This document shows positions 1,400 through 6,834 of a stretch of 32,688 nucleotides of DNA, piece by piece. The DNA comes from an uncultured Pelagibacteraceae bacterium (GTDB lineage Bacteria > Pseudomonadota > Alphaproteobacteria > Pelagibacterales > Pelagibacteraceae). Made by a program: the position numbers and the translations under genes. Numbering within the stretch: the first letter of the stretch is position 1; each line of letters starts with the position of its first letter. Below the pieces are notes generated by a model. The model saw only the letters and a program-made list of their open reading frames with translations. It was not told the origin of the DNA and did no database searches. The stretch covers positions 1 to 32,688 of the forward strand of contig CATMHL010000003.1 in assembly GCA_950068185.1 (NCBI GenBank), given 5' to 3'.

Positions 1400-1768
1400 T
1401 TATTTATTTTTTTGTATTAATTTTTCTATTTTTTCAGCATAATCAAACGATTTATCACCAACAAAAGAAACTTTTGGCAAAAACTTCATATCAATCTTTT
1501 TTGACAGAGCTTTTCTAATAAGATGGGAAAATTCAGTTAATATGTTAACTGCATGTTCTGTATCTTTTCCGCCCAATGGTATGACATACACTCTAGCATT
1601 TTTAAGATCTGGACTCATCCTGACTTCAGTAACCGTAATACTTTTTGTTTCTAAAATTGGTACTTTTGCCTCATCTTTTAAAAAAATTTGTCCCAAGGAC
1701 TGTTTTATTAATTCTCCTACTCTTAATTGTCTTTGTGAAAAGGGAGCATTATCGTTTCGCCTAATCAT
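1400..1768 (-). CDS. rbfA: Ribosome-binding factor A
   Basis: 122 aa; RVGELIKQSLGQIF...ITVTEVRMSPDLKNARVYV; located between infB and rpsO. Confidence 0.95.
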   Translation of the reverse strand: MIRRNDNAPFSQRQLRVGELIKQSLGQIFLKDEAKVPILETKSITVTEVRMSPDLKNARVYVIPLGGKDTEHAVNILTEFSHLIRKALSKKIDMKFLPKVSFVGDKSFDYAEKIEKLIQKNK

Positions 1769-4002
1769 TAAATTCTTCTTTCTGTCTCTATAATCTTATA
1801 AACTTCGATTACATCTTTTTCTTTAAAATCGGCAAAATTTTTGAGGGTTATACCACATTCAAGACCTGCCGTTACTTGTTTTGCGGCATTTTTTTCTCTA
1901 AAAATACTATTTATTGCACCTGTATATAATACATTTCCATCTCTTATCAACCTGGCATTTAAATTATTTACTATTTCTCCTTCTATAACTTTTGATCCGG
2001 CTACTTTGCCAACTTTCGAAACCGTAAAAATTGTCTGCACTTCTGCAGAACCTACCGCTTGTTCTTTTACATCTGGTTTTAGTAAACCTGATAATGAGTC
2101 ATTTATAAAATCTAAAACCTCATAAATTATATTAAAAAATTTTATTGTTATTTTATGAGTTTCAGCCAATTTCTTTGCTTCTTTATTTGGTCTCACATTA
2201 AAACCTATAAGAATAGCATTAGAAGCTCTTGCAAGAGTTACATCTGTTTCAGTAATTACACCAATATTAGATAAAATTATTTTTGGAGTAACTTCTGGAT
2301 GCTTGATTTTCTCAATTGCATTTTTTAGTGCTTCGCTAGAACCATGTACATCAGATTTAATAATTATAGACAGTTCTTCAGGTGTAGCGGTGTCGTCAAA
2401 TGCAGATTCTTTATTTGCTGAAATTAGTGGTGCCTGTTTTGATTTCAAGTCTTTAATTCTATATTCATTTATTTTCTTTGCTTTCTCTTCAGAATCCACC
2501 ACTATAAAATCATCACCAGCAAATGCAGAATTATTCATACCCAAAATCTCTACTGGAGTTGATGGTAATGCTGAATCAATATTTTGTCCTTGATCATTTA
2601 TCATTGCCCTTATTTTTCCCCAAGTGTTTCCGCTAACAAAATAATTCCCTTTCTCTAAATTACCACTTATTATCAAAACTGTAGACACTGATCCTTTACC
2701 TTTATCTATTCTAGATTCTAGTATAACCCCTGTTGCAGAGCCTTCGAAACTTGCTGTTAGATCAAGAAGGTCTGATTGAAGAGTAATATTTTCCTTAAGT
2801 TTATCTAAATTTTTTTTTGTAATCGCTGAAACCTCAGCAAACAATGTGTCTCCACTTAATTCTTCTGCAATTAACTCATATTGCAAAAGTTCATTTTTTA
2901 TTTTTTGTGGATCAGCTGCAGGTAAATCACATTTGTTTATTGCAACAATAATTGGCACTTTTGCCGCTTTTGCGTGTTTTATTGCTTCTATTGTTTGAGG
3001 TTTAACTCCATCATCAGCTGCCACAACAAGAACAACGATGTCTGTCACTTTTGATCCTCTTGCTCTCATTTCAGTAAAAGCTGCATGGCCTGGTGTATCA
3101 ATAAATGTAATACTTTTTCCTTTTTCTGTTTTTACTCTATAAGCCCCTATGTGTTGAGTTATTCCTCCATGTTCCTGTGCAACAATGTTCGTGTTTCTTA
3201 AAGCGTCCAGTAATGATGTTTTTCCATGATCAACATGACCCATAACAGTTACAATTGGAGGTCTTGATTTTAAATTTTTGTTATCTTTTTTTTCGGGTTT
3301 TAAAATATTTAAATCTGGTTTTTTTTCCCTAATAGGTATATTTCCAAATTCTTTTACAAGATATTCCGCTGTATCAGCATCAATAGTATGATTTATAGTT
3401 GCAACAACACCCATACCCAAAAGATGTTTGATTATATTACTAGCCTGCATAGCCATTCTATTTGAAAGTTCTTGTATAGTAATCTTGCCAGGAATATTGA
3501 CTTCATGAACAATTTTTTTAGTTTCAATCTTTGCTTTTTCAGAATCTTGGTTTTTCTTTTCTTTAAGTCTGGCACGTCTTACCGATGCTAAACTTCTCTC
3601 TCTTCCATCCAAAACTTCATCATCTAAAGCTTTTGATAAAGTAAGTTTTTGTTCTCTTTTTGAAGTAAACCCTTTGTCTTTTCCTAAACTGCTCTTTTTT
3701 GGTTGTAAACTATCTTCTTTTAAATTTTTAAATCTATTCGTGGCTCTTTCTTCAGCCATCTTTCTAATATCAACATTGCTGTTTATTCGTGTTTTTTTTG
3801 GAATGAAATTAGCAGTTGATTTAGATTTGTTAAAGTTATTATCTCGCGATTGAAATTTCTTTTCTCCCCATCTTCTTGGAGCTTTTTTTTCTATAAGAAC
3901 CGATGTTTTTTGCCTACTTTTTACATAATTCGGAACATTATGTAGTGTTTTTGATGAAACACTTAAAGTAAGTTTTTTTTTCTTTATTTTTTTTTCTTCC
4001 AT
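1768..4002 (-). CDS. infB: Translation initiation factor IF-2
   Basis: 744 aa; [23 protein letters not shown]...[12 protein letters not shown]...[18 protein letters not shown]-domain motifs. Confidence 0.98.
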
Positions 4003-4016
4003 AAAAAAGATTTTCT

Positions 4017-5564
4017 TTATTTAAATACAATATTTCTAGCGTTAATAATTAAATTATCCGCTTCATTATTCGTCAAAGCAAACTCCTCAAGATATCCTTC
4101 AATTTTATATCTGATGCCTTTTTTTTCATCATAACCACCTATCAATTCATCAGTAGAAAGGTCTGCAAAATCCTTCAAAGTTTTAATTTTTTTTTCACCT
4201 AATGTTAATAACATTCCTGGTGTAAGCCCCTTGTGATTTATCAAATCATCATTAACGCCAAGATCTTTTAATTTTTTTTCAATATTTTCTTTTTCTTTAA
4301 CAAGATATTCCGCTGCTCTTTCTTTTAATTCATTGGCTGTGTTTTGGTCTACACCTTCAATTTTTATAATCTCATCTAGAGATGCTTGAGAAATTTCTTT
4401 AACTGAAGAAAATCCTTCGGCAACCAAAAGTTGTCCTAAAGTTTCATCTACCTCTAAATTTTTTACAAAAATTTCAGTTTTTTCTTTGAATTCTAATTGT
4501 CTTTTATCAGACTCTTCCTTTTCAGTTAATATATCTATTTCGAAATCAATTAATTTTGATGCCAATCTAACATTTTGTCCTCTTCTTCCTATTGCTTTAC
4601 TTAAATTTTCTTCAGTTAAAATAACTTCTATTTTTCTATTTTGATCGTCAATTATTACTTTTTGAATTTCAGCAGGCGCCAAAGCACTTACAACAAGAGA
4701 TGCCACATCTTCTGACCAATGAACTATATCTATTTTTTCTCCTGAAAGCTCGTTCACTACCGATTGGACTCTACTTCCCCTCATACCAACGCATGCTCCA
4801 ACGGGATCAATAGAAGAATCTTTTGAGATAACGCAAATTTTTGCTCTACTGCCTGGGTCTCTAGCGGACGATTTAATTTCGATGATTCCATCATAAATTT
4901 CAGGAACTTCTTGAAAAAATAATTTTTCCATAAATTTTGGACTAGCTCTAGATAAAAATATTTGTTGGCCCTTATTTTCTCTAATTACATCATAACAATA
5001 AGCTTTGATTCTATCTCCAGTCTTTAGAACTTCTCTAGGTATAAGCTCTTCTTTTTTAATAATAGATTCAGCTCTATTTAGATCTACAATTACATTTCCA
5101 TATTCTAATCTTTTTACCATACCACTTAAAATTTCATCCTTTTTACCAATAAAGTCATTATATTGCCTTTCTTTTTCAGCAGAGCGCACACTTTGAGTTA
5201 TCACCTGCCTGGCTGTTTGAGCAGCAATTCTTCCTAAATCTATAGGGGGTAATTGTTCAAATATTTCATCTCCGACTTTAATGTTTTCTTTATTTTGTAT
5301 TTTTTTTGCATGCTCCAATGAAATTTCAGTATCCAAATTTTCTGGTGACTCCACAATTGTTAATACCTTGTGCAAACTTATATTCCCATTTTCTCTGTCG
5401 ATTTTAGCTCGTATGTCATTTTCTGATCCAAACTTTGTTTTAGCTGCCTTTTGTATTGCTAACTCCATTGAGCTTAGTATAATTTCTGGATCAATAGATT
5501 TTTCTGCGGCAACAGCTTCAGCTATTCTTAAAAGTTCTACTTTATCAGATCTTTGGTTCAACAT
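4017..5564 (-). CDS. nusA: Transcription termination/antitermination protein NusA
   Basis: 515 aa with S1 and KH-type motifs (DPVGACVGMRGSRVQSVVNELSGEKIDIVHWSED; AIGRRGQNVRLASKL) and C-terminal helical repeats. Confidence 0.97.
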   Translation of the reverse strand: MLNQRSDKVELLRIAEAVAAEKSIDPEIILSSMELAIQKAAKTKFGSENDIRAKIDRENGNISLHKVLTIVESPENLDTEISLEHAKKIQNKENIKVGDEIFEQLPPIDLGRIAAQTARQVITQSVRSAEKERQYNDFIGKKDEILSGMVKRLEYGNVIVDLNRAESIIKKEELIPREVLKTGDRIKAYCYDVIRENKGQQIFLSRASPKFMEKLFFQEVPEIYDGIIEIKSSARDPGSRAKICVISKDSSIDPVGACVGMRGSRVQSVVNELSGEKIDIVHWSEDVASLVVSALAPAEIQKVIIDDQNRKIEVILTEENLSKAIGRRGQNVRLASKLIDFEIDILTEKEESDKRQLEFKEKTEIFVKNLEVDETLGQLLVAEGFSSVKEISQASLDEIIKIEGVDQNTANELKERAAEYLVKEKENIEKKLKDLGVNDDLINHKGLTPGMLLTLGEKKIKTLKDFADLSTDELIGGYDEKKGIRYKIEGYLEEFALTNNEADNLIINARNIVFK

Positions 5565-5584
5565 AATTGAATTCCGTTTCCTCT

Positions 5585-5611
5585 AAAAAAAAATGGGCAA
5601 AAGCCCATTTT
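5585..5611 (-). terminator. Intrinsic terminator-like hairpin between metK and nusA (possible nusA attenuator)
   Basis: Minus-strand AAAATGGGC-TTTT-GCCCATTTTTTTTT: perfect 9-bp stem (5590-5598 / 5603-5611), 4-nt loop, T-tract down to 5585. Confidence 0.85.
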
Positions 5612-5667
5612 GGATTTTCCAGGTAACTTAAGGTTTATTTAATTTATATTTTAACTTTTTTCAAGGC

Positions 5668-6834
5668 CTACTTTTTGAAAATTGTTGTTTTATCAATTTT
5701 TTCCCAAGAAAAGGAACCATTTAATCTTGGTTTTCTACCAAAATGACCGTAGGTTGCAGTACATTCATATATAGGTTTATTTAAAGACAACATTTCTCTT
5801 ATACCTCTAGGGCTTAAATCAAAATTATCTTTTATTAAATTTTTCACATGTTTTGACTTTTCATCATCACCGTCAAAAAGATCAACGTATATTGATAAAG
5901 GTTTAGAAACACCAATAGCATAAGCTAATTGAATTAAACATTTATTTGCAATTTTTGAGGCAACTACATTTTTTGCAATATATCTTGCGGCATAAGCAGC
6001 CGATCTATCAACTTTACTTGGATCCTTGCCAGAAAAGGCTCCTCCTCCATGAGGCGCGGCTCCACCGTAAGTATCAACAACAATCTTTCTTCCCGTTAAA
6101 CCTGAGTCTCCATCGGGTCCTCCAATTATAAACTGACCTGTCGGATTCACATAAAACTCCTCTTCCTTTAATCCTGATAGCAATTCTTTTGGAATTGATT
6201 TTTCTAAATATGGACGGACTATTTCTTTTACTTGAGATTGATTAACTTCCGGTGAATGCTGAGTAGAAATTACAACAGACGTTACTTTTGTTGGTATTCC
6301 ATTTTCATACATCATTGTAACTTGACTTTTTGAATCTGGTTCTAACTTATCTGCCTTACCATTTTTTCTATCTGCAGCCATTAATTTTAATATTTTGTGA
6401 GAATAATAAATTGGTGCTGGCATTAAAACTTCAGTTTCATCACATGCGTAGCCAAACATCATTCCTTGATCACCGGCCCCCTCATCTTTTTTATTACCTT
6501 TCGAATCCACCCCCATGGCAATATCCGTAGATTGAGAGTGCAAATGAACATCTATACTACAATTTTTCCAGTGAAATCCTTTTTGTTCATATCCTATATC
6601 TTTAATACAATTACGAACTTTATTTATTAAATCATCTCTCCTAATTGCTGGTCCCCTTGTTTCTCCAACCAAAATAACTTTGTTTGTAGTTGTTAAAGTT
6701 TCACATGCTACTCTGGAAAAAGGTTCTTTTGCTAGATAGGTATCCACAACCATGTCTGATATACGGTCACAAATCTTATCTGGATGACCTTCTGAAACAG
6801 ATTCGCTAGTAAATAAATATGATTTTTTACTCAT
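5668..6834 (-). CDS. metK: S-adenosylmethionine synthase
   Basis: 388 aa; [57 protein letters not shown]. Confidence 0.98.

Follow-up and report, generated by a model that had tools for sequence, protein, structure and literature searches.

The nusA gene of Pelagibacterales is probably controlled by a leader attenuator, an intrinsic terminator hairpin through which NusA would feed back on the nusA-infB-rbfA-rpsO operon and which would descend from the rimP-leader in a lineage that lacks rimP. The anatomy of this element, its conservation, its attachment to nusA, the position of its promoter signature, and the lack of both an antiterminator and rimP can be read directly from the sequence, and from these features we infer actual termination, partial read-through and NusA dependence at the hairpin. 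We propose that RNA polymerase, initiating at a promoter between metK and nusA or arriving by read-through from metK, transcribes a leader of about 20 nt and then a GGGC hairpin with U9. Some of the complexes would terminate there and release an RNA of about 44 nt, with the remainder continuing into nusA and the translation genes. Polymerase-bound NusA would most likely raise termination at a hairpin whose modest strength would be deliberate, such that high NusA would result in less NusA synthesis.

Architecture and conservation of the nusA leader

The window, which is the whole 32,688-nt stretch of DNA analysed here, carries on its minus strand nusA (4017..5564; TIGR01953, 1.3e-114), which is the controlled gene and the probable feedback regulator, followed downstream in the same operon by infB, encoding IF-2 (1768..4002; TIGR00487), rbfA (1400-1768), and rpsO, encoding S15 (1137-1397). 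The neighbour upstream of nusA, outside the element, is metK (5668..6834, minus strand; TIGR01034). The identities of NusA, MetK, IF-2, RbfA and S15 were assigned using NCBIfam models. Read 5' to 3' on the minus strand, the metK-nusA gap (5565-5667) comprises promoter-like sequence, a leader, the hairpin AAAATGGGC-TTTT-GCCCATTTT with its nine T residues, the stretch AGAGGAAACGGAATTCAATT, and the nusA ATG. The intrinsic terminator (5585..5611, minus strand), identified by motif, conservation and covariation, consists of a 5' arm (5611-5603), a TTTT loop (5602-5599), a 3' arm (5598-5590) and a run of nine T (5593-5585), and its stem contains nine perfect pairs, four of which are G-C. The 20-nt spacer that follows (5565..5584, minus strand) holds a Shine-Dalgarno-like AGAGGA and ends at the nusA ATG (5564). 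These features bear out the first-pass annotation, made from the letters alone, which had described a perfect 9-bp hairpin with a T-tract about 20 nt before the nusA ATG. Its observation that no promoter fits downstream of the hairpin also holds for these 20 nt, and the part of the gap upstream of the hairpin does accommodate a promoter-like signature.

The window has a single match to GGGC-N4-GCCC-N-T8, a pattern that 100 dinucleotide shuffles failed to produce, and the hairpin is the top-ranked terminator-like site in the first 16 kb of the window. Folding of the entire metK-nusA gap gave no unusual stability relative to shuffles (z -0.53); as the folding energy of the gap is uninformative, the evidence resides in the specific motif and its conservation. 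Among Pelagibacteraceae genomes, the related pattern GGG-N6-CCC-NN-T8 is nearly confined to the nusA leader, and a reversed control pattern gave no matches. A dispersed repeat was ruled out, given that the pattern is nearly unique in each genome. An Rfam search of the window element returned no riboswitch or other family over threshold, and the sub-threshold matches to Bp1_162, L20_leader and CyaR were set aside as they look like generic hairpin-plus-U matches.

We compared 90 distinct leaders of nusA, of which 70 are from Pelagibacteraceae and 20 from a second family of the order Pelagibacterales (f2), drawn from loci identified by NusA searches of the same genus, the same family and f2; the sample also includes uncultured Pelagibacteraceae records and one Candidatus Pelagibacter ubique assembly. 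All 90 leaders contain a GGG...CCC hairpin with a T-run of exactly nine residues behind it, and have a GGGC/GCCC stem in 70/70 Pelagibacteraceae and GGG/CCC in 20/20 of f2. When the 70 Pelagibacteraceae leaders were aligned on the hairpin, the GGGC, the GCCC and most columns of the T-run reached 2.0 bits and most flanking positions fell below 1 bit, with full conservation limited to the hairpin and T-run. The stem differs by family, having A-U closing pairs in Pelagibacteraceae and the form GUGGG/CCCAC in f2. Covariation among relatives, a check that the first-pass annotation had asked for, was evident as compensatory changes on both sides of seven of the nine stem pairs in an alignment that includes other alphaproteobacteria, and 98% of the cells in the stem alignment were paired, far more than in shuffled and slid controls. 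The best match of a covariance model built from this alignment was the nusA leader in 15/15 Pelagibacterales genomes, which overlap the training sequences. One assembly (G007) contains two different nusA loci (C7 and C107), both of which have a leader hairpin of their own; with a listed contamination of 5%, this assembly is likely mixed.

Promoter signature, hairpin strength and competing readings

Approximately 27 nt upstream of the hairpin, the window contains a sigma-70-type promoter signature at a conserved position (5637..5664, minus strand), consisting of TTGAAA (5664-5659), a 16-nt spacer and TTAAAT (5642-5637). Relatives have promoter-like hexamers (TTGAAA, TTGAAT or TTGATA) and -10 elements such as TATATT, and in the metK-linked group the -10 mostly ends 25-30 nt before the GGG, with a standard deviation of 6.5 nt versus 23.6 nt in shuffles, a contrast that shared ancestry inflates. 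Two points weigh against the attenuator here, namely that TTAAAT, the version found in the window's own clade, resembles a -10 only weakly and that the generic promoter score in f2 is not above shuffles, and we therefore refer to the nusA promoter as putative. The f2 leaders (L129-L148) strongly share the stretch cTTGATTTATT...GGTGTATAG about 35-60 nt before the hairpin, which may be the promoter of that family and which a generic sigma-70 matrix did not place above shuffles.

Transcription of nusA is predicted to start near 5630, about 7 nt past the -10, which would give a leader of about 20 nt (5612..5630, minus strand; AAGTTACCTGG is common to the window's clade) and, on termination, an RNA of about 44 nt. 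Given the promoter signature upstream of the hairpin, the element is a leader of this length joined to a terminator, and more than the 3' end of metK. A class-wide leader motif like ACATTCTTRTAG between promoter and hairpin was discarded, being only slightly above shuffles. The antiterminator pairing in 5612-5667 for which a search had been suggested did not materialize, as the RNA upstream of the 3' arm offered no stable alternative pairing (mean -1.9 kcal/mol).

To place the strength of this hairpin in context, we scanned approximately 830 kb of SAR11 sequence, comprising stretches of three relatives (G030, G024 and G003; L219-L258) and the window, and recovered no more than 12 good intergenic intrinsic terminators, of which three are nusA leaders. 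Most of the others have stems of 10-13 bp and follow genes that, judged by eye, are substrate-binding-protein-like or porin-like. Strong intrinsic terminators are thus scarce in the SAR11 stretches examined, and most of them lie 12-25 nt after periplasmic substrate-binding-protein-like genes and before permease genes, which suggests fixed partial termination between binding-protein and permease genes in SAR11 transport operons. For a matched control, we traced through relatives the terminator that follows an amino-acid substrate-binding protein gene. This control family has a folding energy of -18.0 +/- 1.7 kcal/mol and T-runs of 6-10, whereas the nusA-leader hairpin is uniformly weaker (-12.0 +/- 1.2 kcal/mol) with a constant T-run of nine and an uninterrupted U-tract. 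By these predicted energies the nusA leader is modest and tightly held, and it is without an antiterminator.

The main rival, which we judge unlikely while giving it real weight, is a constitutive partial terminator that holds nusA-operon transcripts at a fixed ratio and insulates them from metK or trmB read-through with no NusA feedback. SAR11 appears to use such hairpins between substrate-binding-protein and permease genes, yet the nusA hairpin is located at the 5' end of its operon behind its own promoter signature, and its stem sequence and T-run vary far less than those of the control terminators. In favour of a constitutive element are the perfect U9 and the lack of a sensor domain and of an antiterminator; B. 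subtilis NusA-dependent terminators tend to have interrupted distal U-tracts (PMC8060035), and the SAR11 terminator, with its perfect one, could be NusA-independent. However, the corresponding B. subtilis leader does respond to NusA.

It is considerably less probable that the palindrome ATGGGC-N4-GCCCAT is a DNA operator bound by a dimeric transcription factor, or that the short terminated RNA is itself a small RNA. The arms are near-invariant around a variable 4-nt centre, as an operator might be, and a unit of about 44 nt running from promoter to terminator would produce a small RNA with a U-tail, but the T9 run is conserved as strongly as the arms, the f2 arms change compensatorily from A-U to G-C, and the other copies of the palindrome that we examined are in coding sequence.

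While the gene upstream of nusA is metK in the window's clade, several other Pelagibacteraceae genera and f2 have a further gene between the two, judged trmB-like by eye, and in these the hairpin sits after the trmB-like gene and before nusA. We therefore rejected as hardly credible the reading of the hairpin as an ordinary 3' terminator of metK whose read-through feeds nusA: it does adjoin both genes in the window's clade, but its conservation with nusA whatever the upstream gene argues strongly against this, as do a stem that begins 56 nt past the metK stop, when ordinary SAR11 terminators mostly begin 12-25 nt past, and the promoter signature between metK and the hairpin. Of the reading put forward by the first-pass annotation, the part supported is that of a leader terminator of nusA, as the hairpin follows nusA and not metK, has a promoter signature at a conserved distance, is of constant sub-maximal strength and matches the rimP-leader. 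The promoter signature in the gap, the universal conservation, the rimP-leader identity and the missing rimP had been absent from that annotation.

Loss of rimP and leaders in other alphaproteobacteria

RimP_N was detected in none of 70 Pelagibacterales genomes (G000-G087), 23 of which are at least 90% complete; a control search did recover it from ten reference genomes, Caulobacter among them. In Pelagibacterales, nusA is the first gene of the operon and the leader lies directly before it. Among 40 nusA regions sampled throughout the Alphaproteobacteria, approximately 22 carry a similar terminator ahead of the ORF that precedes nusA, an ORF that is rimP where checked, and the stems of these leaders are often GGTGGG...CCCGCC with T-runs of 5-8. 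Of ten such genomes checked, six have RimP_N and in four it was not detected. A genome from another family of the class (G277; L212), with no detectable RimP_N, has the terminator AAAGGTGGATCC...GGAATCCGCCTTTTT directly before nusA and is possibly a second case of a leader kept after loss of rimP. The covariance model also matched upstream of nusA in several non-training genomes (for example G195, G128, G144, G214 and G265), but outside SAR11 it is not specific. Two SAR116 loci (L067 and L068; nusA near 2986) have a trmB-like gene directly before nusA, with no rimP between them and no hairpin; loci missing rimP therefore do not always carry the leader, a point against the NusA-feedback attenuator.

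That the leader still sits directly before nusA without rimP counts, on genomic grounds, against an effector role for RimP and is in keeping with one for NusA. Pelagibacterales thus provide a natural experiment on the effector of the rimP-leader, with rimP undetected and the leader kept before nusA. NusA feedback thereby becomes directly testable on a template of about 100 bp. More tentatively, the SAR11 regulator may have shrunk to a promoter, a leader of about 20 nt and an invariant hairpin with U9 read by NusA, possibly through sequence-specific recognition of GGGC/GCCC; if so, survival of the leader after rimP loss would show that NusA, and not RimP, is the effector of the widespread rimP-leader. 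The data also suggest that a marine lineage which is highly streamlined and has few intrinsic terminators in the sequence surveyed has retained the one before nusA with its T-run length fixed.

Comparison with known attenuators

A search of the literature for SAR11 transcription data found none, and a 2009 survey of Pelagibacter for structured RNAs leaves nusA unmentioned (PMC2704228). The rimP-leader was described by Naville and Gautheret in 2010 as a terminator with an unusual, highly conserved GGGc...gCCC stem and a U-stretch before rimP-nusA-infB; predicted attenuators lay before rimP more often than before any other gene, and the rimP-leader was termed the most ubiquitous transcription attenuator (PMC2965389). 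It has no antiterminator, its terminator lies 4-130 nt before the first gene, and its effector was left open, with NusA as the best candidate for recognition and RimP as the alternative (PMC2965389).

By sequence, the SAR11 element is a rimP-less variant of this known attenuator. Both have a GGGc...gCCC hairpin with a U-stretch (T9 in SAR11) in the nusA-infB leader, neither has an antiterminator, a larger conserved element or an aptamer, and the distance from the end of the T-run to the nusA start codon, 20 nt in the window and 10-26 nt in the 90 relatives, falls in the described range. Unlike the rimP-leader, whose operon begins with rimP, the SAR11 operon starts with nusA, its hairpin has A-U closing pairs (GUGGG/CCCAC stem in f2) and its T-run is fixed at nine. 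The gammaproteobacterial rimP leader, which is a tandem terminator with an antiterminator (PMC2965389), is the form modelled by Rfam RF01770; it shares with the SAR11 element the operon and the general idea, but the window scored 20.7 bits against a gathering threshold of 47, and RF01770 exceeded its cut-off in 0/16 alphaproteobacterial genomes.

According to a review, NusA of B. subtilis controls its own gene by stimulating termination in the leader (PMC12288461), and that leader extends approximately 180 nt before ylxS/rimP (PMC2965389). The SAR11 leader is far shorter, at about 20 nt, and is followed by no rimP. Set against the B. subtilis type, with a suboptimal hairpin and/or an interrupted distal U-tract, the SAR11 element gives a mixed picture: its hairpin is weaker than the control SAR11 terminators (-12 vs -18 kcal/mol), but its U-tract is uninterrupted. 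By analogy with the B. subtilis nusA operon, which also has a terminator in its 5' leader, the level of NusA would be expected to control read-through into the SAR11 operon.
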